A stretch of 38,648 nt of DNA from Bacteroidota bacterium (GTDB lineage: Bacteria > Bacteroidota > Bacteroidia > Bacteroidales > VadinHA17). The stretch is from contig JAUVKW010000007.1 of the NCBI GenBank assembly GCA_030596025.1, forward strand, positions 1 through 38,648, in the 5' to 3' direction. Position numbers and translations under genes: made by a program. How positions within the stretch are numbered: position 1 is the stretch's first letter; the number at the start of each line of letters is the position of its first letter. The notes below the pieces were generated by a model. It was not told the DNA's origin. It worked only from the letters and a program-made list of their open reading frames with translations, and made no database searches. Shown piece by piece: positions 14,905-32,802 of the stretch.

Positions 14905-15687
14905 ATGGATTTCAAAATTCTCACTGACAAGCTTCTTGATGATTATACTAAAGTGGTAAAAGAATCTCCTTTAGATAAAATTGATAAAATCAAAAAGATT
15001 GAATTGCCTGTAGACTATTTCCAGTTTTACAAATCAGTTTCATCAGTTTATTCATCTAAAATTGAGGGAGAGGATATTGATTTTGATAGCTACTTCAAGC
15101 ACAAATTTCTAAAAGTAAAATTCAAAACCAATTATACAAGGAAAGCTGATGATTTGTACGCTGCATATGACTTCATTGATAATAATACACTTAATATCAA
15201 CAATGTTAAAAAAGCCCATTCTATTCTGAGTTCAAATCTTTTACCCAAAAGTCAACAGAGATTGATTCGAAACAACCCAATGTTTGTGATAAATAGTGAA
15301 GATAAAATTGAATATATTGCTGCCAATCCGGAGATTGTTAAAAAGGAATTAGATAAGTTATTCCATGATATTGATTTACTGATAAAAACCGACATTAATT
15401 CTTTTGAGATTTTCTACTATGCTTCATTCCTACATCTAGTTTTTGTAAAAATTCACCCATTTCAAGATGGCAATGGAAGAACAGCCCGATTGATTGAAAA
15501 GTGGTTTTTAATTCAGAAGGTAGGACAAAAAGCAGCATCTGTACAATTGGAGAAAAATTATTATAAGCGACTCAAAGAATATTATTCAAACATTAAAAAG
15601 TTAGGTCTTGAATATGATGTTTTGGATTATGATAAAAGCCTTGATTTCTTATTGATGACAGTCAAAGGAATTGATAATATTGATTAG
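14905..15687 (+). CDS. Fic family protein
   Basis: Perfect Fic motif HPFQDGNGRTAR; N-terminal inhibitory-helix-like SSKIEG ((S/T)xxxE(G/N)). Confidence 0.9.
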   Translation: MDFKILTDKLLDDYTKVVKESPLDKIDKIKKIELPVDYFQFYKSVSSVYSSKIEGEDIDFDSYFKHKFLKVKFKTNYTRKADDLYAAYDFIDNNTLNINNVKKAHSILSSNLLPKSQQRLIRNNPMFVINSEDKIEYIAANPEIVKKELDKLFHDIDLLIKTDINSFEIFYYASFLHLVFVKIHPFQDGNGRTARLIEKWFLIQKVGQKAASVQLEKNYYKRLKEYYSNIKKLGLEYDVLDYDKSLDFLLMTVKGIDNID

Positions 15688-15697
15688 GCACTTACCT

Positions 15698-15807
15698 ACA
15701 ACAATGCGAACTAAACAAAGCGGTCTCACAGCTTGTCCCGATCCTCGGGAAACTTCATGCCAGCAGGCAGGAAGTGAGTAAACTGTGTTTAGAGGCTCCG
15801 TTATGAG
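15698..15807. repeat. Diverged structured repeat, copy B (3' of fic)
   Basis: ACAACAaTGCgAAcTAAaCaAAGCGgtCTCACaGCT...GTGAGTAAAC...TTTAGaGGCtCCgTTATGAG; same orientation as copy A. Confidence 0.6.
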
Positions 15808-15838
15808 ATCTTGGTAAGGATCATTAATAGTATCCAAT

Positions 15839-16639
15839 ATGTATCAGATCTATATAATTTCCGATGGTTCAGGAGGAACAGCAGAAAGAGCTCTGAAAGC
15901 CGCATTGACACAATTCCCTGACATTCAATCCAAAATTGAGATTTGGTCTGAAGTAAGGGAGGAAAAGCAGGTTAAAAAAGCAATCCTCAAAGCAAAAGTC
16001 ACCAGGGGGTTTGTTGTACATACGGTGGTAGCAAAGGAATTGCGAGATTTTATTGGCAGGCAAGGCCGCTTACATAATGTAAAAACCATAGATATTATGG
16101 GATCCCTTCTTGCTCAACTCGCAAATCAGTTTTCTGATTCTCCTGCTGAAAAACCAGGGTTGTTTCGTGAACTCAACAAGGAATATTTCAGGCGCATTGA
16201 AGCTATGGAGTTTGCTTTCCGTCATGATGATGGATTAAGAACACATGAGCTTGAAAAGGCTGAAATTGTTATGCTTGGTGTATCAAGGACCTTTAAAACC
16301 CCTTTAAGTATATACCTTGCTTTTAAAGGATGGTCGGTAGCCAACATCCCTGTCATACTTGATTTTCAAACTCCTGAAGAATTGGAATCCCTGGATCCAA
16401 AAAAAGTTTTCTGTCTTACCACCGACACCAACAGCCTGGTTAACTTAAGGAAGGTGAGACATGAACATCTTGGTGGCTCAACAGGTGAATACGCCAGTAT
16501 GGATTATGTAAAACGGGAGTTATTATATGCCAACCGGTTTTTTAACAGGCATAAAGCCTGGTCCATAATAGATGTAACCAATAAGCCAATAGAAGAGATA
16601 GCTTCAGAGATCCTCCAGTATATAAACGAGTCACAATAA
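15839..16639 (+). CDS. Pyruvate,phosphate dikinase / PEP synthase regulatory protein (kinase/pyrophosphorylase, DUF299)
   Basis: YIISDGSGGTAERALKAAL, LGVSRTFKTPLSIYLAFKGWSVANIPV, LTTDTNSLVNLRKVRH. Confidence 0.92.
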   Translation: MYQIYIISDGSGGTAERALKAALTQFPDIQSKIEIWSEVREEKQVKKAILKAKVTRGFVVHTVVAKELRDFIGRQGRLHNVKTIDIMGSLLAQLANQFSDSPAEKPGLFRELNKEYFRRIEAMEFAFRHDDGLRTHELEKAEIVMLGVSRTFKTPLSIYLAFKGWSVANIPVILDFQTPEELESLDPKKVFCLTTDTNSLVNLRKVRHEHLGGSTGEYASMDYVKRELLYANRFFNRHKAWSIIDVTNKPIEEIASEILQYINESQ

Positions 16640-16654
16640 GTATTTCTGGAAGCC

Positions 16655-17548
16655 TCAAATCAAAATGTCTTTGTTCCAGCCCATCTTTATAAGATCAATT
16701 CTGGCCGGATCGGCAGTCCCAAGATGATGCCTTGTATCAGCAAGATAAATGTGTTTTACCGGCGGCTTGATTGGACGATCTTCTTCAAAAAAATCTCTGC
16801 GTTTTTCCTGAAGTATTCTAACTCCTACCGAATCCACTGCAACAGGATCAAAACCTACCAATAAACCCTTGTATTCCCATGTATATTTTTTATTGTAATG
16901 ATGCGGACCAACTCCGTTGAATAAAGGAGTCATCATTACCAGGATATTCAGCCTGGTTTTTCCTTCCACAAATGGAAGTTTCCACAGAGTAGCAAGATCG
17001 GCACAGGTATCAGGATGAAACTGTGAAGGTTTTCGAACAAAAGTAATATAGTTCTTAATCAAAGATCCAACACCCGACCAATCATGGGTACGCATGGGAC
17101 GCACATTGATCAGGGCCGTACCCCCGGTAAAAATGGGGTCATCTAATAGACCGCGGTCTCTAATACTTAAGTGCTCTTCAGATACCCCGGCACTCATAAC
17201 ACCTTCTTTTATTGACATTTCAAGTTCCTTTGGAGTTGGAAGGTAATTCCATACATTTGATTTTATCCCAACAATATCATCGGGATGAATAAGCTTTTTC
17301 CATGCATCTCCGGCATTATTTGTTCCAGTTAACCGGATTACTGCCTGGTCAAGCATATCTTTCATTACCCCGGTATTAAACTTCCTGTTCTCATCCATAA
17401 CATTCTCATCACGGATGAGCACTACAGGTGATTTTTTCCCTTCCCCTTTACCAAACAATGGATAAGGAAAATTCATGTAGATAGCCCCAGCTGCGGTAGC
17501 CAAAGCTGATTTTTTTAACAAACTTCGTCTTGTGATTTTTTTATCCAT
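16655..17548 (-). CDS. DUF362 family protein with Tat-type signal
   Basis: KKITRRSLLKKSALATAAGAIYMNF Tat leader; GIKSNVW, LINVRPMRTHDWSGVGSLIKNYI, GFDPVAVDSVGVRIL match DUF362-type proteins. Confidence 0.78.
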   Translation of the reverse strand: MDKKITRRSLLKKSALATAAGAIYMNFPYPLFGKGEGKKSPVVLIRDENVMDENRKFNTGVMKDMLDQAVIRLTGTNNAGDAWKKLIHPDDIVGIKSNVWNYLPTPKELEMSIKEGVMSAGVSEEHLSIRDRGLLDDPIFTGGTALINVRPMRTHDWSGVGSLIKNYITFVRKPSQFHPDTCADLATLWKLPFVEGKTRLNILVMMTPLFNGVGPHHYNKKYTWEYKGLLVGFDPVAVDSVGVRILQEKRRDFFEEDRPIKPPVKHIYLADTRHHLGTADPARIDLIKMGWNKDILI

Positions 17549-17569
17549 AATAAGCAGGTGTTAAATCGT

Positions 17570-18469
17570 TTAAAGTTCGCGAGAATCTATGCTGTTTTGT
17601 GTCTCCTTAAGAAGGTCTTTTGCAAGAACTTCAGATGCGGCATGAAACACTCCAATAAAATATTCATTATAGTTGATATAGGCAATCCATGTATCATCTT
17701 CCATCAAGGAAATACCATTTCTATTTTGCTCATCCGAAAATGCCCTGGAGAATTGATGAACAGCCTGTTTTGCATCCTCAATACCTGGATACTCAATGAC
17801 CATAAGATATAATCTGTCTTTCTTTTCCCCATAGGAAGCAAGTATGCAATTGGTCTGATTGTTAATATTCAGAATATTTTCATCAGATATATAGTAAAGC
17901 GAATTTACCCAGGCCGGATGATGGAAGTAAAGAACACTTTCATCTACCAGTCCATTTTCGGGAATGACCTTAAGGACTCCAGGTAATTCTCCTGTTTCAG
18001 AAATTGAATTATCTATATATTCTGCAATTTTTTTAATTGCCAGTTGTGCATCTTCAGATCCATCAAGACTTACAACAGATACATAATACCTGGATTTCCA
18101 AAACAAAATAGCATCCTCATACAACTGGGAACCCTGTCCATAGCTTGTATCCATTTCCTCACGAACATGAGTAAACACCCCATAGGCATTCCTGCTATTC
18201 TTCATGTCGAAGATCTCTACAGCAATTTGGGAATTGCCATTCTTACTGTATCGCCGGCTGATCACATTATTAAAACCATAGGAAATATATAGCTCAGCTC
18301 CCCCATTAATATAGTTGAACAAGTTTTCTTCATCAAAATACTTATCCTCATCAGTCCTCTCCCATCCTGCTATAGATAAAGGTAGTAACTGAGTAAGATC
18401 GGGTTCTTTAGCATCCATTTGCTGACCGGATAGAATTAAGAATATTTGAATCAAACAAAAGCAAAACAT
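17570..18469 (-). CDS. Secreted DUF6599-like protein
   Basis: Signal peptide; LPLSIAGWERTDEDKYFDEENLFNYINGGAELYISYGF and GVFTHVREE...GSQLYEDAILFWKSRYYVSV pattern. 21 nt upstream of the DUF362 gene on the same strand. Confidence 0.65.
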   Translation of the reverse strand: MFCFCLIQIFLILSGQQMDAKEPDLTQLLPLSIAGWERTDEDKYFDEENLFNYINGGAELYISYGFNNVISRRYSKNGNSQIAVEIFDMKNSRNAYGVFTHVREEMDTSYGQGSQLYEDAILFWKSRYYVSVVSLDGSEDAQLAIKKIAEYIDNSISETGELPGVLKVIPENGLVDESVLYFHHPAWVNSLYYISDENILNINNQTNCILASYGEKKDRLYLMVIEYPGIEDAKQAVHQFSRAFSDEQNRNGISLMEDDTWIAYINYNEYFIGVFHAASEVLAKDLLKETQNSIDSREL

Positions 18470-18836
18470 TTCAATTATGAGTTATTTTACCTAAAGATAT
18501 GGATTTTTATGCTGTTGTTGAATATGATATATATTACATGGGAGGTTTAGAGTTTAGAGCCTTCGACAAGCTCAGGACAAGGTTTAGTGTTGTCAATACC
18601 ATATTTAACCCGGAAAATGCACACATTTTCTACGATTAAGACTATACCAACAAATTTGGATCATTTCATTACCCCAAAATTTGGGTATGTCTAAATCGGG
18701 ATTTACTTCGTGAGCTCCCGTTGGTCGGTTCCCGCTTTGCTTCCCACTATCCTTCGCACATTCATACAATGCGCTTCGCTTTTGCATGAATAAAGCGGGT
18801 TAAGATTGATCATTGTTAGAACTTTAGGCATTTTAG

Positions 18837-19490
18837 TCATTTTATCATATCCCCATATTTCTTTCTGAATTTCTTTACCTTGGGACCAATTACCACTGAG
18901 CAATAGGGTTGGATGGCATTGTTTAAGAAGTAATCCTGGTGGTAGTCTTCTGCAATAAAGAAGTTTTCATAAGCAGTTATTTCTGTAACTATCGGATCTT
19001 TGAAAGCAGATGCCATTAGCTTTTTTGAAGATTCTGCCAGTTTTTTCTGCTCTTCATTATGATAAAAGATAACAGAGCGATACTGGGGACCTATATCTGC
19101 TCCCTGCCTGTTCAGGGTGGTGGGATCATGTACCTCCCAGAAAACTTCCAGTATCTGATTAAAAGCAATTACTTTTGGGTCAAATTTAATCTGACATACT
19201 TCTGCATGACCGGTAATACCTGAAGTAACTTCCCTGTAGGCTGGATTTGCTATTGCCCCTCCCGAATAACCGGATACCACAGATTCAACTCCTTTCAAAT
19301 CCTGAAAAATTGCTTCCACGCACCAGAAACATCCGGCACCCAGGGTGACCATTTCTATAGAATTTCCAGGTTCCTGTTTTATATTTGATTTTATTTCCAT
19401 ATTGTTCTGTTCTTGAAAAGAATTGAAGGATAACAAAAATGCCGGCACAAGAAAACCAAATGAAAGCATATGAACAAAATATCTTTTCAC
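18837..19490 (-). CDS. msrA: Peptide-methionine (S)-S-oxide reductase, with N-terminal signal
   Basis: LGAGCFWCVEAIFQDLKGVESVVSGYSGG, GHAEVCQIKFDP, FWEVHDPTTLNRQGADIGPQYRSVIFYH. Confidence 0.95.
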   Translation of the reverse strand: MKRYFVHMLSFGFLVPAFLLSFNSFQEQNNMEIKSNIKQEPGNSIEMVTLGAGCFWCVEAIFQDLKGVESVVSGYSGGAIANPAYREVTSGITGHAEVCQIKFDPKVIAFNQILEVFWEVHDPTTLNRQGADIGPQYRSVIFYHNEEQKKLAESSKKLMASAFKDPIVTEITAYENFFIAEDYHQDYFLNNAIQPYCSVVIGPKVKKFRKKYGDMIK

Positions 19491-19606
19491 GATTGGTACA
19501 AAAAAATAAGTGATGCTATGATTTTATAAGTCAAAAATAGTAATTGTTACCGAAATAATTAAGGAATACGCATCCGGCAGAATGAAAATATAATGCAGCC
19601 AGAAGT

Positions 19607-19855
19607 CTAGAAAATTTCCATCAGGTACCTGATTTTCAGAATCGAATACTGCCTGTAAGTATTCTGGATGTCCTGGTCAATATCTTCAGGGAATCGTTTT
19701 TTTGCTTTTGAAGCCCTGGATTCAGGTAGGTCAGATGTTTCTTTTTGAGCTTTTCTTAAGCTTTCAAGATATCCCAGCTTTCTTTCCACTTTTTTAAGTT
19801 GATTCTCCAACGGGCTCATAGGGTTTTTCTTATAAGGAACTAAGAAATAATTCAT
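19607..19855 (-). CDS. Small hypothetical protein
   Basis: 82-aa ORF, charged/helical composition, in a gap with no competing ORF; weak evidence. Confidence 0.35.
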   Translation of the reverse strand: MNYFLVPYKKNPMSPLENQLKKVERKLGYLESLRKAQKETSDLPESRASKAKKRFPEDIDQDIQNTYRQYSILKIRYLMEIF

Positions 19856-19971
19856 CCTTCACAAATAAGACGTTTGAATTTTCTTTTCGTTGCAAGAAAA
19901 ACAAATTTTCTTTCCAATATTCTTAAGGAATGTTAAGGAATTGGGGGGAAACATATAAAGGGACGGAATTC

Positions 19972-20331
19972 TTAGATAGGACTTTCCTCGTTAAAAAGTA
20001 CTTGAAAATACTCTTCATCAATTTTGGCAAGACCCTGCTCATAGCAATAAAACGAGATTTTCCCGGTCTGTGAAATAGTAGTCTGCGTATGAAAGTCAAA
20101 ATTATAGCCTTTTGCAATTAGCTGGTCGCGGTGCACTTTAGTTTGCCGACTAGAATTAAGCTCTGCCAGTATCCTTCGGTTTCTCCTGAGAACATTATGA
20201 ATATTCCTGATTATAGCAACTTCATCACGATTTTGACTGTTATTATAGGAGTTCCGGCAGTCGTCATCACAAAATTTCTTATCAGACCTGCCTCTTATGA
20301 CTTTTCCACAATCCAGACAAAATCGTTCCAT
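19972..20331 (-). CDS. Hypothetical zinc-ribbon protein
   Basis: N-terminal CLDCGKVI...KKFCDDDCRNSYNN (CxxC...CxxxC) zinc-ribbon-like; 119 aa, divergent from ssb. Confidence 0.7.
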   Translation of the reverse strand: MERFCLDCGKVIRGRSDKKFCDDDCRNSYNNSQNRDEVAIIRNIHNVLRRNRRILAELNSSRQTKVHRDQLIAKGYNFDFHTQTTISQTGKISFYCYEQGLAKIDEEYFQVLFNEESPI

Positions 20332-20370
20332 GTAGTTGATTTTGACTTAAATATACAAAAAATATTCGTT

Positions 20371-20413
20371 TTAGCCGTTTACAAACGTTTACAAACGTTT
20401 AACTCCCGGCTAA
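20371..20413. promoter_or_regulatory. 10-bp iterons inside an inverted repeat in the zinc-ribbon/ssb intergenic region
   Basis: TTAGCCG (20371-20377) ... CGTTTACAAACGTTTACAAACGTTTAAC ... CGGCTAA (20407-20413). Confidence 0.6.
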
Positions 20414-20495
20414 TACATATGTTATGCTTTTACTTTGTAGTGTAATGTTCGTGTAAACCTTACAATTTATTAATTAATCATTTAAATCTTTAGTC

Positions 20496-20843
20496 ATGAA
20501 CAATTTGAAAAACAGAGTGAATCTCATCGGAAACCTGGGTGCAGACCCTGAAGTTAAAGAACTGGAAAGCGGAAAAAAATTCGCAAAAGTCAGATTAGCC
20601 ACATCTGAAAACTACAAAAACAAGGATGGGGAGAAAGTTACTGATACCCAATGGCACAACCTCGTAGTTTGGGGGCCAAGAGCAGAATTTGTTGAAAAAT
20701 ACCTGAAAAAGGGTCAGGAGATTGCCATTGAAGGGAAGTTGAATCATCGCATATATGATGGTGCGGAAGGAGAAAAAAAGTATTTTACTGAAATAATTGT
20801 AAATGAAATTTTAATGTTGAGACCAGGATCGGCTCAGAAGTAA
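20496..20843 (+). CDS. ssb: Single-stranded DNA-binding protein
   Basis: NNLKNRVNLIGNLGADPEVKELESGKKFAKVRLATSENYKN...TQWHNLVVWGPRAEFVEKYLKKGQEIAIEGKL. Confidence 0.95.
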   Translation: MNNLKNRVNLIGNLGADPEVKELESGKKFAKVRLATSENYKNKDGEKVTDTQWHNLVVWGPRAEFVEKYLKKGQEIAIEGKLNHRIYDGAEGEKKYFTEIIVNEILMLRPGSAQK

Positions 20844-20867
20844 TTATATCGAAGCAATATATAAAAT

Positions 20868-20892
20868 GAATCCCTGGCTCTTGCGGGGATTC
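20868..20892 (+). terminator. Possible terminator after ssb
   Basis: GAATCCC...GGGATTC stem followed by a short T-rich tract (TCTTTATAT); weak U-tract. Confidence 0.4.
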
Positions 20893-20919
20893 TCTTTATA
20901 TCCTTTACTAATCCATTCT

Positions 20920-21218
20920 AGCCCTATGGGCTGAATTCAATAGTTGTAATTCCTTTTCCAGCCACTGAAGTGGCTGGCTATTACCAATGCCAGGCTAATA
21001 GTATTTATTGACCAGCATTGATGCAAAAATAGAAGTCCCGTAGAAACTAATTGGAAGGTAGCTTGCAAACTTATGGCTGGTTCAAAATTCTGACATATAT
21101 CATCAGGAAAAACAGGCTAAACTCATCGAAGTCCCGGAAGGGACCTTTTGGAAATAGCCTGCCGATTTATCGGCAGGGTACCAACTAAAGAGAATAAAAT
21201 GAGGTCCCATCAGGGACC
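20920..21218. repeat. Cluster of REP-like palindromes
   Basis: AGCCC-tat-GGGCT (20920-20932), CCAGCCACT-ga-AGTGGCTGG (20958-20977), GTCCC-ggaa-GGGAC (21131-21144), CCTGCCGAT-tt-ATCGGCAGG (21158-21177), GGTCCC-atca-GGGACC (21203-21218). Confidence 0.7.
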
Positions 21219-21425
21219 GAATGGCTATAATAATTTGGTAATTCAGGGCTCTTCGGTTTAATCAAAAACCAGCCTTACACGGCAAGCTTCTCTTTATTCC
21301 TGATAAAAAAATCCCGGCTCGCAAATAATCTATCAAAACCTTTAGGCCAGGTTGATATTTTTAATTCAATAATTAACTGTCTCGCGAAAAACTCCAGGGA
21401 GCATAAAACCCCAGGATTCCATGAT

Positions 21426-23756
21426 TCAATATAAAACACTTTCAAGCTTCTGGAACAACCACATGAAATTATCCCTGGTTTCCTCATCGAAATCTCCGAA
21501 TTTCAAATTATTATCCTGCACCTCATTCATAAAATTAGAAGCAAGTACTGCTCTGGAATACCTGTTTTCTTTAAGAAACTCTGAATTCGTTTCAGGAATC
21601 CCGACCCTTTGATGCAGGATGAACTTCTTAAAATCAAGTGTTGAAAATAAATCTTCAATTCCCTGAAACTGATCCATATTGATAAGATACTTACGTACCA
21701 GGCTCTGATCTCCCCTGCAAAGATTTTGTTTAATATCACTGAAAATTTCCATACCCTCTGGATTTCCTCCTGTTAAAACTACAAAGTCAAGACCCCATCC
21801 AAGGAGTAAATTGACAAGGGTTTCAACATTAGATATATTAGAGGCAGGAAGTAAATAGATTTCCTTTTTGAGTTCAATCATGGTCAAAATGGTAGACAGA
21901 TAGTAATAGGTTGAAATATCCTCAAGAATTACATTGTTTTTCTGCCGTATATACTGCTGTTCAGACAGGCGGGCACCAATAAGTGTATAGATAGGTGAAA
22001 GGGTGTCAGCAGAAGCCTCTGTTAATGATTTGGCATTAAAAATTTTAGTTTCACTTGAATCGTCATCTTCAATTGCCCGTTGTACAGCCAGTAACCTGTA
22101 AATCTTTTTTGAATCGATCAAATGGGGAGAATGAGTGGAGTAAAGTACCTGGATTTTATCCTTAATATAATCAAAGACCTTCAAAACATCCTCCTGGGCC
22201 CGGGCATGCAGACTTAATCCTGGCTCATCTATCAACAGTACCATCCCCTTATCCGGGTCAGATACTGCTGCAGCTTTTAATTCCAGGTAAAACGATAGAA
22301 ACCAGCGCACTCCCCTGCTTCTTTGTTTTGGGTACAATCGCTCCTGCTTGTCCCTGATCCAGAACTCAAGGTAAGGAAAGCCACTTTTGTCGGGATGGGA
22401 CTGGGAATAATGCTCTAATTCAAAATTGATAGTTATTTTATTTCTCTTTCCTATTTTTTGTCTCCAAAAATCCTGGAAATCTATTGTTATGTCTTTATTC
22501 AGTTTTTCAATTTTCTGCTTTAACAACCTGCTGCTTCCCTCCACGAAAAACCGGGGAGTTAAACCAGACACTTTCAGAAAATTTCCCGCTGCACGGAATC
22601 CTTCGACATCTTTATTGCCGCTTAAAATGTCCTCAAGATCAATTTTGTTTGGCAAAAGGCTGCTGAAATCTTCGAAAAATACAAATTCAGGGATATATCC
22701 AAACAGAATGTTCCCTGCTTCTTCTCTGGAGTAGAAAGGATCAATATGAGGTTTTTCGTTTCTCACCTCTCTTTCAGCAGCAGCCTGCGATACACCTCCA
22801 AGCACCTTATATGCAAGGTTTCGTTTAAGAATGTCATCCTCCCTGGCCTGATCATATTCCTGAAGCACCTTTACATACTTATCATTGAGTTTGTCTAATT
22901 CAGATTTTACGCCTCTTCTATCAATCTCATAACTAATGGTATTAAATATTCTTTGGAGGTCTCTCAAATCCTGATAAGCAGAATCGAGCTCTGCATGTGC
23001 ATTTTCAAAACGAATCCTGGCCTGCCGGCTACTTTCAGCAAGCTTTGAATTTTGAGTCAGTGCTTCAGCTTCTTTTTTAAGCCCTTCCAATTCTGTTTTT
23101 GCTTTGCTTAAATCAGCTGATGCCTGTTCAAGCTTCTCTTTAGTTTTCCGTAATTTGGTAATAGCCGGTTTTTCTTCTCTGGTCCCCTTAAGCATTTTGC
23201 TCTCTTTTTGGGCTTCCGGTATCAATAGTTTATATCTTTCAACTTCCAGAGATAAAACCTTCTTTTGCTCTTCAGAATTTAATAATAAACTTACTGCGTT
23301 ATCTTTCTTTTCCAGGCATTTATCTATCCTCTTCTGAAGTTTTAGATCATGTTCAGTGCGTGCAGTGTTATGCTTGTCGAAAGAATTGCTTACCTTAGGC
23401 CCTGACAGCTCTATTCTGCTTCCCATATCCTCATCCCATATTCTTGTTAGACACAGTGATTTAGATGACTTTATTTGCTTGAATACTCCAACTGGCAATT
23501 CCTTTTCATTCAGGAGTTTTGAGATAAGCCGGTGATCTATTTCAAAACAACAGGAAACAACAGGAATACTCATATCCCCGCGAAGAACATCTTCTGAAAC
23601 TGTCCCGGAATAAAAACTACTGAGCGCCTCCAAAATAGAGGTTTTCCCTGATTCATTCTGACCAATTATACCGGTAATATTATCCGGAGAGAGCTCATTC
23701 CATCCGGAATCTTTGATAGATCGGAAATTATGAATCCTGAAACTAATAAATTTCAT
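21426..23756 (-). CDS. RecF/OLD-like SMC-type AAA ATPase with coiled coil and degenerate TOPRIM-like C-terminal region
   Basis: Walker A GQNESGKTSILEAL, Walker B GMVLLIDEPGLSLHA, STHSPHLID; central coiled coil; C-terminal NNVILEDISTYYYLSTIL...GWGLDFVVLTGGNPEGMEIFSDIK...IEDLFSTLDFKKFIL. Confidence 0.85.
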   Translation of the reverse strand: MKFISFRIHNFRSIKDSGWNELSPDNITGIIGQNESGKTSILEALSSFYSGTVSEDVLRGDMSIPVVSCCFEIDHRLISKLLNEKELPVGVFKQIKSSKSLCLTRIWDEDMGSRIELSGPKVSNSFDKHNTARTEHDLKLQKRIDKCLEKKDNAVSLLLNSEEQKKVLSLEVERYKLLIPEAQKESKMLKGTREEKPAITKLRKTKEKLEQASADLSKAKTELEGLKKEAEALTQNSKLAESSRQARIRFENAHAELDSAYQDLRDLQRIFNTISYEIDRRGVKSELDKLNDKYVKVLQEYDQAREDDILKRNLAYKVLGGVSQAAAEREVRNEKPHIDPFYSREEAGNILFGYIPEFVFFEDFSSLLPNKIDLEDILSGNKDVEGFRAAGNFLKVSGLTPRFFVEGSSRLLKQKIEKLNKDITIDFQDFWRQKIGKRNKITINFELEHYSQSHPDKSGFPYLEFWIRDKQERLYPKQRSRGVRWFLSFYLELKAAAVSDPDKGMVLLIDEPGLSLHARAQEDVLKVFDYIKDKIQVLYSTHSPHLIDSKKIYRLLAVQRAIEDDDSSETKIFNAKSLTEASADTLSPIYTLIGARLSEQQYIRQKNNVILEDISTYYYLSTILTMIELKKEIYLLPASNISNVETLVNLLLGWGLDFVVLTGGNPEGMEIFSDIKQNLCRGDQSLVRKYLINMDQFQGIEDLFSTLDFKKFILHQRVGIPETNSEFLKENRYSRAVLASNFMNEVQDNNLKFGDFDEETRDNFMWLFQKLESVLY

Positions 23757-23806
23757 CTCTTTAAAATTTATATTTTCTCAATAAAACATTTGAAAGCTGT
23801 GCTACA

Positions 23807-24628
23807 TCATATCTTCAGGCCCAAAACAAGAATATCGTCCACCTGATCATAATCACCCTTCCAGTCGAGAAAAGCATCCAGCAATACATCTTTCTGCATT
23901 CCCATGGGCATGGTATGATGTTTAAATAGTAATTCCTCAAAGGGACCATATTTAAATTTTTTCCCCTTGCTTCCACCAAACTGGTCCACAAAACCATCTG
24001 AAAACAAATATATTATATCATTCTTCTTCATTCTTAAGGGATAGTTAGTAAAGGAGTTTTCCTCAATCCCGCTTACTCCAATAGGCATCCTGTCCCCTTT
24101 GACCTGATGAATGGACTTATCTCTGATGAAATGAAGAAAGTTATTGGCTCCGGCATACTGCAAATCAAATGTACTTGAATTATACGCAATCAGACCAATA
24201 TCCATCCCATCTTTAGACTCATTATGTATCCCCGTTTGATGCAGGGCCTTCATAACCTTCTCCCTCAGCAAATTAAGTATCCTGTTGGGTTTAATAAATA
24301 TTTTTTTCGACAAGATCTCATTCAGAAAAGAAATCCCCAGGATACTCATTAAGGCCCCAGGAACACCATGGCCTGTACAATCTACAACAGCCAGATAGAC
24401 CCAATCATCCATATGAAATATCCAGTAAAAATCGCCACTGACTATGTCTCTGGGTAAATAGAGGATAAAATGATCTCCCAGAAATCTGTTCATTTGCTGA
24501 GTCGGAGGCAGCAGAGCAGCCTGGATAAGGGAAGCATACTCAATACTCTCAAGCATTTCCTTTTTCTGTCTCTCAAACTCCTCTTTCTGAAGCCTAAAAC
24601 TCAGTTTGAAATCATCTTCCTTTTTCAT
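23807..24628 (-). CDS. SpoIIE/PP2C-type serine phosphatase, without a recognisable sensor domain
   Basis: SIEYASLIQAALLPP, LPRDIVSGDFYWIF, AVVDCTGHGVPGALMSILG, YLFSDGFVDQFGG, VDDILVLGLKI. Confidence 0.9.
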   Translation of the reverse strand: MKKEDDFKLSFRLQKEEFERQKKEMLESIEYASLIQAALLPPTQQMNRFLGDHFILYLPRDIVSGDFYWIFHMDDWVYLAVVDCTGHGVPGALMSILGISFLNEILSKKIFIKPNRILNLLREKVMKALHQTGIHNESKDGMDIGLIAYNSSTFDLQYAGANNFLHFIRDKSIHQVKGDRMPIGVSGIEENSFTNYPLRMKKNDIIYLFSDGFVDQFGGSKGKKFKYGPFEELLFKHHTMPMGMQKDVLLDAFLDWKGDYDQVDDILVLGLKI

Positions 24629-24781
24629 TGCATTAATTGAACGATTTTATTGCCAGAAATACTATTAATTAACAGATTAAAATAACATTATATATCACCT
24701 TGCTTTACAGACACATATATAGCCTGAACTTTCTAATTACATCATCCTTTCTTAGCTGGCTGGATTTTCAGACATTATACA

Positions 24782-26161
24782 TCATTTCCATGTTTTACGA
24801 ATCGGATGAGCTTCAGTATTGAAAATCATAGCCTCCCAGTCAATTGTTTCAGAAGGAGCAAATAAGAGGTATAGATATTTCAAGGTTTCAGCCAGGAAGA
24901 AACTTTCCATTTCATCCCCTTTCTCTTTTGTGATTACGCTTTTAAGCATGGCATACCCTTTTTCTGTCTTACAATGCTTAGTTAATGAATTCAGATACAC
25001 CTTCCCCATTTCCAGATAAACCTTATCATGGGTAAAATGATATAAATAGAAGGCAGATTCTATATTTTCAGGCCTTAATAAGTAGGCAGGGTAAACCACT
25101 TCCATTTTGACATAATCTATCTGTTCAGGTTCAATGCTCCATTTCTCCCACATCTTGAAACAATTCTCCTGTAAGGCCACCGCCCGGTCAATCTTATTGT
25201 CCAGTGCCAGTACAGCAGGAAAAAACGCATCAAGGGCTCCAAACCTGCTTGAAACACGCTCTCCTGTATTCATATCTGCCTGGCCATACCATAAACCTGA
25301 ATCTGTACTATCAGCAAGGTATTTATCTATAGCTAAAATGCTTGTTTCCCACATAGAATAAAAATCAGGGTCATCAAATAAGAGCCATGATTTAAGAAGA
25401 TATTCATAATAAGAGTCAATTCTACCTCCCAGATGGCAAATACTATTGGTCCATTCGCCTGTTTCTACATTGATTTCCTCCCCTACAAGCCCAATGTCTG
25501 ACTGCCTTGCATAGAGCTCCATAACCGCTCTTTTTGCCTTGTCGTAGTAAACAGGATTCCCGGTTAATTTAGTTAAAGAACCAAACTCCAGCATAAGTGT
25601 ACCTGTTTCTGCAGGATTACTGATATTACCTCTTGTTTGACCTGTCTTCAGATTTACTCCCCAGTATGGCATTCCGGTTGGAGAATCAAAAACAGGCAAA
25701 AGCCTGTCGGCAAGATCCACTGCCAGATTTAAAAATGCAGTATCTCCATCCAGCTGGTATGCTGATATCAATCCGCCCAGCATGCGGATAGTGATCTCAA
25801 AATTCTGGACCACAATATCCCTGTCAAAATCAAGAGAGTCGAGTATCAGTGCTTTTGCTTCCCTGGCTTCTTCTGTAAGTCCCATGAGAATCATAGTATC
25901 AAAGGCATCCAGAGGAGTCATGACAAATGATCTGGAATACCAGTTATGACCTGTCCCGGATAAAGGTTTCAAGGCATCATAGCCTTTTGCATATTTCATA
26001 TAGGAACCCCAGGCATGTCTGAATTCAGTTTTAACCTGTTCAGCTAACAGGCTTGTCTCCTCTTGAGTTTCTTTAAAAGACTTATCCCTTTGCACACGAT
26101 TACATGATATACTCAATAGTACAAACGGGATAATCCAAAACAAATGTATTTTTTTACTCAT
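24782..26161 (-). CDS. GH47-like class I alpha-mannosidase, lipoprotein
   Basis: Lipobox LLSISC; EFRHAWGSYMKYAKGYDALKPLSG, TPLDAFDTMILMGL, QNFEITIRMLGGLISAYQLDGD, NPAETGTLMLEFGSLTKLTGNPVYYDKAKRAV, RPENIESAFYLYHFT. Confidence 0.88.
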   Translation of the reverse strand: MSKKIHLFWIIPFVLLSISCNRVQRDKSFKETQEETSLLAEQVKTEFRHAWGSYMKYAKGYDALKPLSGTGHNWYSRSFVMTPLDAFDTMILMGLTEEAREAKALILDSLDFDRDIVVQNFEITIRMLGGLISAYQLDGDTAFLNLAVDLADRLLPVFDSPTGMPYWGVNLKTGQTRGNISNPAETGTLMLEFGSLTKLTGNPVYYDKAKRAVMELYARQSDIGLVGEEINVETGEWTNSICHLGGRIDSYYEYLLKSWLLFDDPDFYSMWETSILAIDKYLADSTDSGLWYGQADMNTGERVSSRFGALDAFFPAVLALDNKIDRAVALQENCFKMWEKWSIEPEQIDYVKMEVVYPAYLLRPENIESAFYLYHFTHDKVYLEMGKVYLNSLTKHCKTEKGYAMLKSVITKEKGDEMESFFLAETLKYLYLLFAPSETIDWEAMIFNTEAHPIRKTWK

Positions 26162-26245
26162 GGCTAAAGTTGATTAAGAACCTCAAACTTGCGTATTTAC
26201 AATATTTTTCTGCATTGTTCAAGGTAGTATTTAAATGAATTATTA

Positions 26246-27202
26246 TCAAATATAGTGTTTGAGAACAAAAAAGATTGCAGGAAGACTAAGAATACTCAGG
26301 AGTGTTGTAATAAAAACATTTTGAGTGGCCATTTCATCATCTGCACCATATACTTTTGCCAGCACTACAATATTTGCCATACAGGGCATAGCAGACTCCA
26401 GTAGTATCACCATAACTGCAAGTTTGTCCTGTGGAAATGAGAATAACTGTTCCAGTCCCTTATACATCAATAAACCCATTAGCGGGATCATAATTAATTT
26501 ATTCCATGCCAGCAGATATGACTGAAGTGAAAATATAGCCTGCTTCCAGCTTACTCCTGCCAACATAGCCCCGATATATAACATTGAAAGATAAATAGTT
26601 GTTTTTCCCAATCCTCCCAGAGAGCTTTCAATCACAGATGGAAGACGAAGGGAGAAAGTCAACATCATGAATCCAATGGCAAATGCCAGGGTATTGATAT
26701 TCAGTAATTTATTAATCCCATAAAACCCGGAAGTGCCTTTGCTTCCCTGCAGGGTAGAAATACCAAAGGTCCACATTACAGAACTACTCACAAGATAATA
26801 CAACATGGCATAATACAATGCCTCTCCACCGGGGAACAAGGCATTGATAAGGGGGAATCCCAGGTAAACGATATTTCCGAACATAGTATGAACAAGATGC
26901 ACTGATGATGATTTTGGTGGAAGTTTGGTTAGTCTCGACGACAAAAAGCCGGTAAGTCCCATAAAAGCCACCATAAGAAGGGCAAAAAGAAGGGTAAATA
27001 CACTATTCTTAAGTAAGGAAACACTTACATCCATTCCGGATATTCCTGTAAGAACAAGCAATGGTAAGGTAATATTGATAATAATCTTTGCCAGGCCATC
27101 TTTTACAGGACCTGCAATAATTCCGGTTTTAGACGCAATTATTCCAATCAGGACAAGGATACCCAGGATTGCAATCTGATCTATAATGATTCCGAATTCC
27201 AT
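26246..27202 (-). CDS. AEC (auxin efflux carrier) family transporter
   Basis: Ten-TM-like protein; GIIASKTGIIAGPVKDGLAKIIINITLPLLVLTGI and ESAMPCMANIVVLAKVYGAD motifs. Met at 27202 preferred over the track start at 27250. Confidence 0.82.
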   Translation of the reverse strand: MEFGIIIDQIAILGILVLIGIIASKTGIIAGPVKDGLAKIIINITLPLLVLTGISGMDVSVSLLKNSVFTLLFALLMVAFMGLTGFLSSRLTKLPPKSSSVHLVHTMFGNIVYLGFPLINALFPGGEALYYAMLYYLVSSSVMWTFGISTLQGSKGTSGFYGINKLLNINTLAFAIGFMMLTFSLRLPSVIESSLGGLGKTTIYLSMLYIGAMLAGVSWKQAIFSLQSYLLAWNKLIMIPLMGLLMYKGLEQLFSFPQDKLAVMVILLESAMPCMANIVVLAKVYGADDEMATQNVFITTLLSILSLPAIFFVLKHYI

Positions 27203-27445
27203 AATTTGATTGTCAAAACTAATGAAATTCCATGGATACCATGCCACCAATTATAAACTTCTGATTCACTCCCGGTTTAAAATCTTAATTTTCCCCAAAG
27301 CCCTTTGCACAAGTACCACTGACAAAGCCAGAGGGTCGTGCATCTGTGACCTCTTATCTTTGCAGTTCTTTACGTCTTCTCTGCGCTTTTTTTGCGTAAC
27401 AGCTCTTTAGTTCGTTGATAGGAATAATTTTGTAATTTTGCAGCC

Positions 27446-28186
27446 ATGAGAGTATCATTCTATCAGAGAAATATCTATGGAATACTGGGAACAATAATCG
27501 TACACCTGGTACTCGGTATTTTATTTATGTTGATCACTCTCACTTCTGACAGGAGGAATATGGAACCATATATTTTAATTGACTTGAGGCCTTCAGATGA
27601 GGAACTCCTGGAAAAACTATCTGAAATTGATATTCCAAATGAAGAACTAAATAAAACACCAGAGGAATACCTGGACATTGCTGTGAATTTATCAGAAATG
27701 GCTAATGAGGAATTTGATCTTGAGGAATACCTTGACCAAATTAAAAATGAAATGATATCGGATGGAGAGCTTGATGAAAATAATTTCATTGATCAATGGA
27801 AACAGCGTGCTGAAGAAGATGCAGCCCTTGAATATATTGAAAATAGCACTCTTGAGGATGATGAAAATAAGAAATCCCTTTCTGAAGAGATGGCAGCAAA
27901 TTACCGGGGGCCAACACGTGTGTTTTATGATTTAAAGGATAGAACACATAAGAAACTACCTCTCCCTATTTATAAATGTCAAAGTGGAGGGAAAGTGGTT
28001 ATGGAAATTATAGTTAGTTCTGATGGCAGGGTAATAAGTGCCAATGTACTTCACGAAGAATCTTCAACAGATGATAATTGTTTATACGAGTCAGCACTAA
28101 AAACGGCACTAAAATCCAGATTTAATTCAATTTCAGCCTCCATTCAGCAAAAAGGAAGCCTGACATACATTTTTGCTGCCCAATAA
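27446..28186 (+). CDS. Inner-membrane-anchored protein with TonB C-terminal-like domain
   Basis: N-terminal TM, acidic middle, C-terminal KLPLPIYKCQSGGKVVMEIIVSSDGRVISANVLHEESS...ALKTALKSRFN. TAATTTTG box at 27433-27440 just upstream. Confidence 0.65.
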   Translation: MRVSFYQRNIYGILGTIIVHLVLGILFMLITLTSDRRNMEPYILIDLRPSDEELLEKLSEIDIPNEELNKTPEEYLDIAVNLSEMANEEFDLEEYLDQIKNEMISDGELDENNFIDQWKQRAEEDAALEYIENSTLEDDENKKSLSEEMAANYRGPTRVFYDLKDRTHKKLPLPIYKCQSGGKVVMEIIVSSDGRVISANVLHEESSTDDNCLYESALKTALKSRFNSISASIQQKGSLTYIFAAQ

Positions 28187-28264
28187 TTATTTGCTTTTCT
28201 CGTATTGATAAATTCTGCAGGATAAATGAAAAAAATATTTCAAAATATGGTGTACTCTGATAAT

Positions 28265-28428
28265 AATAAACTCCAAATCTCAATTTCCAAATTCCAAATA
28301 AATCACAACATCCAATTTTCAAACTTCATACACCAGCAGCTACAGAGTTTGGTTATTAGATTTTGGTTATTGATTATTATTTGAATTTTGTGATTTGTAT
28401 ATTAGGATTTCAGGATATACTCTCCAAT
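28265..28428. repeat. Degraded large inverted repeat
   Basis: Left arm ...AAATCACAACATCCAA...; reverse complement of the right arm reads ...AAATCACAAAATTCAA... (14/16 in the core); A/T-rich text-like arms either side of a short centre. Confidence 0.45.
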
Positions 28429-28459
28429 TCTCACTCTTGCTACTACTTTATGCCCTTTT

Positions 28460-29185
28460 CTACCTGCTGGAAAGGTGAATTTCTTCATCAAAAGTACTCT
28501 TAATGCTTTTGTTCTTAATGTTCCAGGAAAGAGAGATATAATATAATTTCACATCAAAATCACTATATATCTTACCATTGGTGGCATGCGTATAATCCTG
28601 ATTCATATAGTTTTTCATGTAATACTTAAACTTAACATTAAAGCCCCCAGGAAATTGTAAACCAACAAAAAGGGAGGGCATCAAGGCATTCACTCTCTGA
28701 CTGAACCAATCTGAATATTTAATTTTGGTTCCACTTCTGCTGCCATCACCATCTACCCAGGACTTTTCTTTATAATGAAACAACCATTCATACTCCCCTC
28801 CTCCAAAAACATAAAACTGGTTATCAAAAGATCCTAATTTTATTGCAAGGGGAATACCAAGATTATAGGTTCTCCTGATTGTTTTCACAGGTAAATTAGA
28901 ATCAAAATCTACTTCATTTGTAATAAATCCAACATTTCTTAGAGCAAGACCCGAGTAAACCCCAATATTATCAGTAAAATCCATATGCACATAAGATCCA
29001 AGATGCAAAAACACTGTCCATCGAAGGTTGGTAGGAACATCCCCATTATGGTCCAGTTCACTCATCTGGAATATCATCTCCCCACCACTTGTAGTGTAAA
29101 CACTTTTCTGTGCCCTAATAAACTGAAAAGAGGCACCAATAATCATTGCTATTGAAAGAATAATAATTTTTTTCATCTGTTGCAA
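28460..29185 (-). CDS. Outer-membrane beta-barrel-like hypothetical protein
   Basis: Signal peptide KKIIILSIAMIIGASFQFIRAQ; alternating aromatic/hydrophobic strands (GVYSGLALRNVGF, FNVKFKYYMKNYMNQ, LYYISLSWNI). Confidence 0.65.
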   Translation of the reverse strand: MQQMKKIIILSIAMIIGASFQFIRAQKSVYTTSGGEMIFQMSELDHNGDVPTNLRWTVFLHLGSYVHMDFTDNIGVYSGLALRNVGFITNEVDFDSNLPVKTIRRTYNLGIPLAIKLGSFDNQFYVFGGGEYEWLFHYKEKSWVDGDGSRSGTKIKYSDWFSQRVNALMPSLFVGLQFPGGFNVKFKYYMKNYMNQDYTHATNGKIYSDFDVKLYYISLSWNIKNKSIKSTFDEEIHLSSR

Positions 29186-29338
29186 GTAATTTTGTTAATA
29201 GTTAGATTCGTTATGATTGAATTTATCATTCAAGTCGCAAGATATTATAATATTTCCAATAAAATAAACAGAAGACCTATTATCTCCCAGTCACCAGCAC
29301 CATAATCATTAATAAAAATCAGCTTTACAGACAATACA

Positions 29339-29760
29339 CTAAAATAAACCCTGCTGTTTATAATTAAAAGCTTGAATAAGTTTTGGAGTATTTTTATCAA
29401 CTCCCTTTTTTGATATTAATGGGGATATACAATAAGCCTCCATCAAATTCTGAGGGTATGGCTCCAATAATTGAAGCACCTGGTTTATTGGCTGATCCAA
29501 ATCAAGCCATTTCTTTTCATCCTCAATGGATAAGATAGCAGGCATTCTTTTTTTTGAATTGTGAATTGTTTCCATCAGGGGAAACCCCAATTGAAAAGAA
29601 ATATCGATGAGCTATCCTGAGAATGAATCAGAGGCAATTTGGGTAATTCAAATGCGTGATAATAGTAGCCTGGCCTGTAGGAATCGGGTTCATTTAGGAC
29701 CGCCCCAAATCTATTCTCCATTTCCTCTTTTACAATATTTACATTTACTGTAAAACACAT
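29339..29760 (-). pseudogene. SOS response-associated peptidase (SRAP/YedK/HMCES) remnant with internal deletion and frameshift
   Basis: 5' part MCFTVNVNIVKEEMENRFG...FLFNWGFP* and 3' part LMETIHNSKKRMPAILSIEDEKKWLDL... are SRAP N- and C-terminal segments in different frames; the middle part expected to include the DGFYEW-type catalytic region is missing. Confidence 0.82.
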
Positions 29761-30633
29761 GTTTGTTTTGCTTACTTAAAAGTGAAGAACCAGGATATAA
29801 AGATAAAAGATTCAGCAGTAAGTATAAAAAAACAAAAATGGGAAACCATTCTTGCGAATTGCTTCCCATCTTCACCTTATAATGCCCGTAGACTTTATTC
29901 AGTGCCAGGTTACAGTTATTCTGACTTCAGCTTCTGGTTGGTTTCCCGAAGGATTCTTCCCTTTGGCTTCTGGACTTCCGGCTTTCGAGTCTTACGAAAC
30001 TTATACCTTCTGCCCTGACTTCAGGCCCCGTCCGTCTCTGAACCTTGCGAAACAGTGACTTAGAGTTTGAATTTAGTTGGGATTTACCGTTTCCGGATCC
30101 TCCTTCCTGCCTTCACCTGTGAAACCTGCCCTCTGCATCAGTACTTCCAATCTTTTTCGGTCTGCACCGGTCCTTTTTCGTTTCCATCCTTGCGAATTTC
30201 CATTCTAAACTTCCTTGCTTTCTTCAAGCTGGTACAGATGAAGCCGATCTTCCGATCTTTTGGCTTACGAGAGGTTGAATTGGTCTGATTTCCTAAGAAA
30301 CCTTTCTTCTCCGACTTAAGACTTCACATCAGTCTTTTATCTCTCACCTGATGAATCAAAAATACAACTGAAATTATCCCTGTGCAAACATTTTTGGTTT
30401 TCGATATCCACAACATATACACATAAGTTATTAACAATTGTTAATAAGTTAAGATCTTTAAAAATGCACGAAGAATTTACCTGCTATTGCTTATCACAAA
30501 GCTGTTCATAATGAATATTTTCTGTGTTATGCAATATAGACTTCAGAAAAATAAAACCTATTTATTCCAAATGAAAATCATAAATTGTATTAATTAATAA
30601 TATTATATTTGAAAAAAATCAAGAGCGGGTATC

Positions 30634-32190
30634 ATGATTAAAAAAGTACTGATTGCGAACCGCGGAGAGATTGCTGTACGTGTTATAAGGTCGTGCCGGG
30701 AAATGGGAATTACAACGGTTGCAGTTTACTCCGATTCTGACAGAGCAGCCCTTCATGTTCGTTACGCAGATGAGGCCTATTACCTGGGCCCATCTCCTTC
30801 CAATGAGAGTTATCTTGTAATTGACAAGGTTCTGGATGTTGCAAAAAGATCGGGGGCTGATGCTATTCATCCTGGTTATGGTTTTCTGTCTGAAAATGCT
30901 GAATTTGCTGAAAGAATAGCAAAGGCAGGATTGGTTTTTATTGGACCACCGGCCAATGCCATTCGGACTATGGGAGATAAGATCACTGCAAGACGAACTA
31001 TGGTCAACGCCAGGGTTCCTGTTGTTCCCGGGACCAAAGAAAAAATCGTCGGCAATAGCCAAATTATAAAAAAGGGAAAAGAAATTGGTTTTCCTATTAT
31101 GGTTAAAGCATCAGCAGGTGGTGGCGGAAAAGGAATGAGGCTTGTAAAAACTGAAGAAGAATTACTTCCTGCTTTCCAGGGTGCTCAATCTGAAGCTAAA
31201 GCCTCTTTCGGCGATGATTCAGTATATATGGAGAAGTATATTGAATCTCCACATCATATTGAATTCCAAATTCTGGCAGATAAGCATGGAAATGCCATTC
31301 ATCTTTGTGAAAGAGAATGTTCAGTTCAGAGAAGGCACCAGAAGGTTGTAGAGGAAACTCCTTCTCCCCTGATGACAGCTAAAGTAAGAGAGGAAATGGG
31401 TAAATATGCTGTTGCTGCTGCACAGGCTGTTAATTATGAGGGTGCAGGAACCATTGAATTCCTCATGGACGATGATCTGAATTATTATTTCCTGGAAATG
31501 AATACAAGGCTTCAGGTTGAACACCCCATTACAGAAATGGTTACCGGTATAGATCTGGTAAAAGAGCAAATTCTTATTGCCTCTGGAAATAAACTCAGCT
31601 ATAAGCAGGAAGATATTAAACAAAACGGACATGCCATAGAGTGCCGCATTTATGCAGAAGACCCTGAAAATAATTTCATGCCCAGTCCAGGGCTTGTACA
31701 TAAAGTAACAGAACCCCAGGGTGCAGGAGTCAGAAATGACGGATATGTATATACAGGTTATGAGATTCCCCTGTTTTATGATCCAATGATCTCCAAGCTG
31801 GTTACCTGGGGAAAAGACCGCCAGGAAGCTATTGGAAGGATGAAAAGAGCGCTTGAAGAATATGTGATACTGGGAATTCGAACTTCAATACAGTTTTTAC
31901 ACAGGATCATGGAAACTCCGGACTTTGTAAATGGAAAATACAATACACATTTTATAGCTGATAATGAAGATTTTCTCTTCAAGTCTTGCTTTGAGGGAAG
32001 GGAAAATAAAAAAACTTCTTCGAAAGGAAGAAAAGAACTGGAAGATATCGTAATGGTCTGTGCCCTTCTTGAGTACAATCATGAACGCAAAATGTCTAAT
32101 GGAAAAACTGATCAAAATGGGTCCTCTTCCCCTGAGAAAAGCTCATGGAAAGAATTTGGCAGAAAAAAGAGTGCCGCTTCCCGACTATAA
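30634..32190 (+). CDS. accC: Biotin carboxylase subunit of acetyl/propionyl-CoA carboxylase
   Basis: KVLIANRGEIAVRVIRSCREMGI, GYGFLSENAEFAE, KASAGGGGKGMR, ECSVQRRHQKVVEETPSP, EMNTRLQVEHPITEMVTG. Confidence 0.95.
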   Translation: MIKKVLIANRGEIAVRVIRSCREMGITTVAVYSDSDRAALHVRYADEAYYLGPSPSNESYLVIDKVLDVAKRSGADAIHPGYGFLSENAEFAERIAKAGLVFIGPPANAIRTMGDKITARRTMVNARVPVVPGTKEKIVGNSQIIKKGKEIGFPIMVKASAGGGGKGMRLVKTEEELLPAFQGAQSEAKASFGDDSVYMEKYIESPHHIEFQILADKHGNAIHLCERECSVQRRHQKVVEETPSPLMTAKVREEMGKYAVAAAQAVNYEGAGTIEFLMDDDLNYYFLEMNTRLQVEHPITEMVTGIDLVKEQILIASGNKLSYKQEDIKQNGHAIECRIYAEDPENNFMPSPGLVHKVTEPQGAGVRNDGYVYTGYEIPLFYDPMISKLVTWGKDRQEAIGRMKRALEEYVILGIRTSIQFLHRIMETPDFVNGKYNTHFIADNEDFLFKSCFEGRENKKTSSKGRKELEDIVMVCALLEYNHERKMSNGKTDQNGSSSPEKSSWKEFGRKKSAASRL

Positions 32191-32217
32191 ACTTATTTAA
32201 GCCCTAATATTCTCACA

Positions 32218-32721
32218 ATGGAAATTCATTTAAATGATAGAATTGCTCAAGTCAATATACTTGACTTTGATGGCACTTATCTCAAAGCTGAAGTAGATGG
32301 AAAGATTTATGATCTTGACTATGCAAGGATTGGAGAGGGAACCTATTCATTTATTTTTGAAGGTAAAGCCATTGAACTGGAAATTTCAAAAACCGGTAAA
32401 CCCAAAGTATTTGAGATATTCAACAGCTGTCATATCTTCAGAACCGAGGTAGTTGATGCTGAAGCAAGGTATCAGAAAAACAGATCCCAGTCAGATGTAG
32501 ATTCTGATGAAACTACAATATCTTCTCCCATGCCGGGTAAAGTAGTGAAAATCCCGGTTAAGGAAGGAGATGAAGTTAAAGCAGGACAAATTCTTGTCAT
32601 TGTATCAGCCATGAAAATGGAAAGCGAATATAAAGCAAAGAAAGATGGAGTTGTAAAAGAAATTCTTGTTTCTGAAGACGATACAATTGACGGAGACCAG
32701 GTATTAATTGTTCTTGATTAG
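32218..32721 (+). CDS. Biotin carboxyl carrier subunit
   Basis: SSPMPGKVVKIPVKEGDEVKAGQILVIVSAMKMESEYKA (biotinylation AMKM). Confidence 0.92.
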   Translation: MEIHLNDRIAQVNILDFDGTYLKAEVDGKIYDLDYARIGEGTYSFIFEGKAIELEISKTGKPKVFEIFNSCHIFRTEVVDAEARYQKNRSQSDVDSDETTISSPMPGKVVKIPVKEGDEVKAGQILVIVSAMKMESEYKAKKDGVVKEILVSEDDTIDGDQVLIVLD

Positions 32722-32802
32722 TTCTTTTAAACATAAGTATCAGGAATACAATGCTCATCTGCCAGAAACAAACTAACCCAAACCATTTATTATCAAAATA
32801 TT

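Follow-up and report, generated by a model that had tools for sequence, protein, structure and literature searches.

The SiaABC(D) system of Pseudomonas aeruginosa is a partner switch composed of the PP2C phosphatase SiaA, the kinase SiaB and the phosphoprotein SiaC, and many SpoIIE and SiaC genes are also found in Bacteroidota. Proteins of the OLD family are grouped into classes 1 to 5, represented by P2 Old and YbjD, GajA of Gabija, the retron OLD, AriA/AriB of PARIS and the archaeal Cran1. To our knowledge, OLD-related ATPases have been studied almost only as phage-defence nucleases. The bare SpoIIE domain is inactive and is turned on through dimerisation by an N-terminal regulatory helix (PMC5468089). 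The PP2C domain of SiaA is a dimer and, against SiaB, SiaA dephosphorylates SiaC, its substrate being SiaC-T68-P (PMC7647112). In OLD nucleases metal binding requires a glutamate together with a DxD motif (PMC6755086). We found no paper in the open-access literature connecting SpoIIE with SiaC in Bacteroidota.

Here we describe a locus in which a SpoIIE-type phosphatase gene directly precedes the gene of an OLD-like ATPase. The window, by which we mean the whole stretch of 38,648 nucleotides that was analysed, belongs to a 3.1-Mb metagenome-assembled genome. The pair has the following features, with the basis of each call in brackets:

23807..24628, minus strand: sensor-less SpoIIE/SiaA-type PP2C serine/threonine phosphatase, 273 aa (ORF, Pfam, NCBIfam, PDB search, motifs)
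23757..23806, minus strand: intergenic gap of 50 bp, phosphatase upstream of ATPase (ORF coordinates)
21426..23756, minus strand: RecF/OLD-like ABC ATPase, 776 aa (ORF, Pfam, alignment, PDB search, motifs)
22800..23399, minus strand: coiled-coil insertion, about residues 120-319, between Walker A and signature region (alignment, prediction)
21426..22055, minus strand: degenerate TOPRIM domain at the C-terminus, residues 568-776 (alignments, motif survey, Pfam)
21203..21218, minus strand: terminator-like hairpin about 208 bp past the stop codon of the ATPase gene (agreement with the consensus alone)

The sequence-only reading had described the first protein as a soluble SpoIIE phosphatase with intact catalytic motifs and no visible sensor, and this is borne out. 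Pfam assigns SpoIIE (PF07228, 2.4e-18) to the 273-aa protein, whose PP2C fold is preceded by only about 40 helical residues. The protein has an N-terminal helix and a switch region (motif SIEYASLIQAALLP) of the kind shared by SpoIIE enzymes, the catalytic Asp in SGDFY, and DCTGHG, FSDG and DD; the catalytic aspartates are invariant in 43 of 43 partner phosphatases. The closest named family in NCBIfam is SiaA at 184.6 bits, with a match over the C-terminal 256 of 658 positions, which stays below the 700-bit cut-off of an equivalog that covers sensor plus phosphatase. The single PDB match, 6k4e ("putative serine phosphatase", 267 residues covered), is what we take to be the SiaA PP2C domain of PMC7647112. 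The likeness to SiaA and 6k4e extends over the switch helix and the PP2C core, but the window pair has no membrane sensor and no adjoining siaB, siaC or siaD, an ABC ATPase gene adjoining instead. The phosphatase likewise shares with Bacillus SpoIIE/RsbU the PP2C catalytic set, the switch-helix region and the partner-switch biochemistry, but lacks a regulatory or membrane domain in cis, the regulator that we propose being a separate ATPase.

That ATPase had been called SMC-like, which fits an ABC ATPase split by a predicted helical region of about 200 aa. Pfam assigns to the 776-aa protein AAA_15 (1.3e-26), AAA_21 and, sub-threshold, SMC_N. Its motifs are Walker A GQNESGKT, a KQRSRGVRWFLSFYLEL signature region, Walker B VLLIDEPG and the H-loop STHSPHL. 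The same GQNESGKT, the QRSRGVRWFLSF signature region, Walker B (DEP) and the H-loop are kept in 40 of 40 full-length paired ATPases, all of which have the N-terminal ABC half characteristic of the OLD family. The coiled coil is kept in length across these proteins and is poorly conserved in sequence. The N-terminus is RecF/Rad50-like, with PDB sequence matches to OLD and Rad50, and the best PADLOC matches are AriA (4.8e-25, top), Old, AbiLi and PtuA, the GajA profile matching as well.

The window ATPase resembles OLD proteins in its N-terminal ABC ATPase, in a C-terminus that is TOPRIM by descent and in its matches to the AriA, Old, GajA and PtuA profiles, but differs from them by its SpoIIE partner, its long coiled-coil insertion, a DxD that is mostly lost in the lineage and a largely vertical inheritance. 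In spite of the AriA match to PARIS, AriB is absent, the neighbour is a phosphatase and the locus is not mobile. Unlike in Gabija, no GajB helicase adjoins the ATPase, whose neighbours are SpoIIE and SSB, and no reverse transcriptase domain as in a type I retron was found in the Pfam-scanned ORFs from 14905 to 34344. The class 5 protein Cran1 offers a likeness in manner of working only, through vertical inheritance with one conserved, although different, partner gene; it retains its nuclease residues and is partnered by a membrane protein (PMC12796447), while the window pair lies outside the Sulfolobales clade, in a different phylum, and has lost DxD.

The C-terminal domain had been termed TOPRIM-like, a description that holds for its descent and calls for qualification as regards its catalytic residues. 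In the window copy E612 is retained, the DxD is replaced (VVLTGGN) and a lineage motif, EDLFSTLDFK, follows; the combination of Glu and DxD found in catalytic OLD nucleases is therefore incomplete, and the OLD-like TOPRIM family PF20469 gives no score on this ATPase in Pfam. We call the domain a TOPRIM relic on the basis of a wider alignment that takes in unlinked relatives from plasmids, prophages and chromosomes, in which E612 never varies and the DxD (D663) column hardly does. A C-terminal profile alignment with two OLD proteins also aligned the E and DxD columns, with confidence in the local alignment only over the Walker B region; a full-length global profile alignment with the same two proteins gave no usable result. 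AlphaFold2 models built from seven sequences, one covering the whole ATPase and one its C-terminal domain, were poor (pLDDT 55.5 and 61.7), and Foldseek matches to the GajA/OLD TOPRIM, which had E values of 0.43-1.7 and stood among glutathione transferases, are no more than suggestive. Among full-length paired ATPases, DxD is intact in only 6 of 40, which shows the nuclease site to be dispensable in the paired lineage. Given this loss in most copies and the need of OLD nucleases for Glu and DxD, nuclease activity is unlikely as the conserved output of the pair; what is conserved would be ATP hydrolysis and phosphatase activity.

Relatives of the ATPase in viral contigs and plasmids (22-38 % identity) have neither the long coiled coil nor a SpoIIE partner, and we found no full-length paired copy in phages and plasmids. 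The coiled coil is likewise absent from unlinked plasmid and prophage relatives, some of the unlinked relatives lying in defence-like or mobile contexts. On one viral contig (L142:183-1067) the gene upstream of the ATPase relative matches PADLOC PD-T7-4 (2.2e-75, DUF4145). On the conjugative plasmid p1 of Vibrio echinoideorum (L148:1445-5983) a distant relative is preceded by genes for a Ser/Thr kinase and a PP2C phosphatase; as a parallel to our pair we rejected this arrangement, which no other plasmid locus that we examined shares. Within a mobile OLD/Abi-like superfamily, the paired lineage has the look of a branch that settled and became nuclease-dead, a direction that we infer, the broader tree being unrooted.

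The sequence-only reading had proposed that the two genes, both on the minus strand and 50 bp apart, form a unit whose homologues should be adjacent in other genomes as well. Counting the window, there are 43 loci, distributed over six GTDB families of the order, whose contig extends upstream of the ATPase, and in every one of them the SpoIIE gene is directly upstream on the same strand. The condition that the sequence-only reading had set for its own refutation, homologues lying apart in other genomes, was thus not borne out. Such pairing is far beyond chance, and chance adjacency was rejected. The gaps between the paired genes range from 3 to 260 bp (median 29, n = 31 loci), and a motif scan of the 50-bp gap in the window found neither a terminator-like site nor a TAnnTTTG promoter motif. 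A scan for sigma-70 promoters returned matches no more frequent than shuffles allow. Adjacency persists down to about 38-40 % identity with differing flanking genes: in part of the home family the pair is flanked by housekeeping genes, among them ssb and the genes of an AEC transporter and a TonB-like protein, and by an amino-acid permease, an exonuclease or an amidotransferase in other families. Since the flanks change between families while the pair persists, the pair itself is the unit.

The ATPase is single-copy in the window genome. Of 36 genomes searched in its own GTDB family, the window genome among them, about 31 carry it. It is also found in five further families, is sparse across the order (17/295) and is all but missing elsewhere in the phylum, where 395 other genomes gave one partial match. 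Two ATPase copies are truncated, starting at contig ends. The sole copy without a phosphatase is a distant outgroup of 552 aa (G454). In four genomes of one genus, 96-98 % complete, that lack the ATPase, every SpoIIE gene passing the search threshold lies outside the partner clade. An exception to the co-occurrence of the pair is seen in G024 (83 % complete; L137, G024:C312), where a fragment of the phosphatase clade, in which FSDG has become FSNG, lies without ATPase at a contig edge adjoining sdh genes; this is possibly a decaying or re-purposed orphan.

There are about a dozen SpoIIE matches in the window genome, most of them within long sensor proteins. Compared with every genome paralogue tested, the partner phosphatases group as a single clade (SH-aLRT 96). 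The phosphatase and ATPase trees have 32 of 37 splits in common, with a mirror correlation of r = 0.89 that was equalled in 0 of 2000 permutations. The inheritance of the pair is largely tree-like. In both trees, a second type found in the home family groups with family f8, across family boundaries; because this non-vertical grouping is shared, transfer or sorting seems to have affected the pair as a unit. With dN/dS values relative to the nearest congener of 0.042 for the phosphatase and 0.074 for the ATPase, compared to 0.129 for the adjacent GH47 gene, the pair is under strong purifying selection. The phosphatase and the coiled-coil ATPase are thus co-inherited, with both active sites strongly selected.

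In two genera of family f8 (L098 in G042; L088 in G256) a third gene directly precedes the pair. It encodes, at 2 of 3 f8 loci, a Reg_prop/Y_Y_Y beta-propeller sensor of 1118-1125 aa fused to SpoIIE, which suggests that extra sensory input is attachable to the pair.

We tentatively read the pair as a conserved two-gene signalling unit in which the ATPase would control dimerisation of the phosphatase and thereby a SiaC-type switch, a reading that strikes us as plausible, if short of probable. We favour the ATPase as sensor and dimeriser in trans because the phosphatase has the helix without a sensor, because SpoIIE needs dimerisation and because SiaC and SiaB families are present in the genome. 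The ATPase would be the missing sensory or regulatory partner. Driven by ATP, it would engage on the ends of DNA or on some other ligand, and would thereby join two phosphatase subunits via their N-terminal helices and so set the switch helices, as SpoIIE-type PP2C activity requires. The active phosphatase would then remove the phosphate from a SiaC-family phosphoprotein, opposing SiaB-type kinases, and SiaC would switch partner. Binding between ATPase and phosphatase, DNA as the ligand and SiaC as the substrate are steps that we infer.

The window genome has seven SiaC matches, four DUF6272 (SiaB-like) matches and about ten SiaA-like SpoIIE genes, with one siaB-siaC neighbour pair (L099:6113-7072). 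SiaC is present in 38 of 38 tested genomes, including the four that lost the pair, and serves about ten other phosphatases; for these reasons its presence indicates feasibility and not specificity. The SiaC genes do not adjoin the pair, which, along with gaps of the upper size given above and the G024 fragment without ATPase, counts against our explanation.

Control may also run in reverse. The ATPase would then be the effector, acting in DNA binding, repair or chromosome maintenance, and would itself be the phosphoprotein switched by the phosphatase, with an unlinked kinase opposing. Adjacency and co-inheritance fit this equally or nearly so, and the Vibrio relative next to a kinase and a PP2C phosphatase would agree with it, although none of the other relatives that we examined is arranged in this way. 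Cran1, a vertically inherited OLD protein of archaea, works in the cell cycle (PMC12796447). However, the phosphatase is of the type of SiaA, whose known substrate is SiaC, and the sensor-bearing SpoIIE inserted upstream in family f8 is more like added phosphatase signalling. Gating by dephosphorylation, as the sequence-only reading had suggested, is possible but not the direction we favour, and we regard this explanation as unlikely.

One explanation for the resemblance to AriA, Old, AbiLi and PtuA is that the pair is an anti-phage system, in which the ATPase would be the sensor of infection and would act with the phosphatase to set off abortive infection or signalling. Unlinked relatives do occur on plasmids and prophages, some of them near restriction, toxin-antitoxin or PADLOC defence genes. 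The loss of TOPRIM catalytic residues speaks against it without being decisive, as the ATPase of E. coli YbjD is reported to be essential and its Toprim dispensable (PMC13261556). However, the best match to a phage record spans only 30 % of the ATPase, the active sites are invariant, AriB or another effector is absent and the phosphatase has no PADLOC match. We disfavour nuclease-based phage defence because the gene is single-copy, near-universal in its family, under purifying selection and, with largely tree-like descent, in a housekeeping neighbourhood. The earlier suggestion of a phage-defence module is thus not supported, anti-phage function being improbable, and a defence-island reading was rejected for the window locus.

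A DNA-damage or chromosome-status checkpoint would be our preferred mechanism with broken or single-stranded DNA as the ligand and a stress or growth switch as the output. The RecF/Rad50-like N-terminus, the PDB matches to OLD and Rad50, and the presence of ssb near the pair in several genomes of family f1 are consistent with it; but the ssb linkage is confined to part of one family and the sequence gives no sign of DNA binding, and we judge this version decidedly improbable.

Adjacency without functional coupling, whereby slow rearrangement merely keeps neighbours together, would suit the mostly vertical inheritance and the partial synteny of ssb, AEC transporter and TonB-like genes, but is very improbable given that the pair stays while its flanks differ, that both gene trees show the same group shifts and that genomes without the ATPase lack the partner phosphatase too.

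Taken together, genes that are co-inherited, co-moved and co-lost point to an undescribed core signalling unit and not to ordinary phage defence. The sequence-only reading knew of no named system of such composition; we likewise found none in PADLOC, NCBIfam or open-access text, so we provisionally consider the pair undescribed, a new and strictly conserved combination of known kinds of protein. It is conceivable, though doubtful, that it represents a new input to partner switching, in which the trans sensor of a PP2C phosphatase is an SMC/OLD-like ATPase of the cytosol that may read the state of DNA. If true, a lineage-specific core pathway would have arisen when a mobile OLD/Abi-type ATPase lost its nuclease and gained a phosphatase partner. 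A conserved, nuclease-dead lineage in permanent association with a signalling phosphatase would clearly exemplify the recruitment of an OLD-related ATPase into regulation. It directly predicts a means of trans control for an orphan SpoIIE/PP2C phosphatase, and the pair would open a way into the study of partner switching in Bacteroidota.

The surroundings had been described as a plastic locus bordered by a REP-like cluster. Plasticity is not supported for the window neighbourhood, where the pair lies among housekeeping genes with conserved synteny, although flanks do differ in other families. The gene directly upstream of the pair (24782-26161, minus strand) encodes a GH47 (alpha-mannosidase family) protein and is syntenic in few relatives only; the 3' neighbour of the ATPase is SSB, on the opposite strand. 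As for the repeats, the intergenic region 20905-21260 contains short inverted repeats and is only weakly REP-like, its partial matches numbering five (32-76 bp, 73-91 % identity) and lying at four further sites of the genome.
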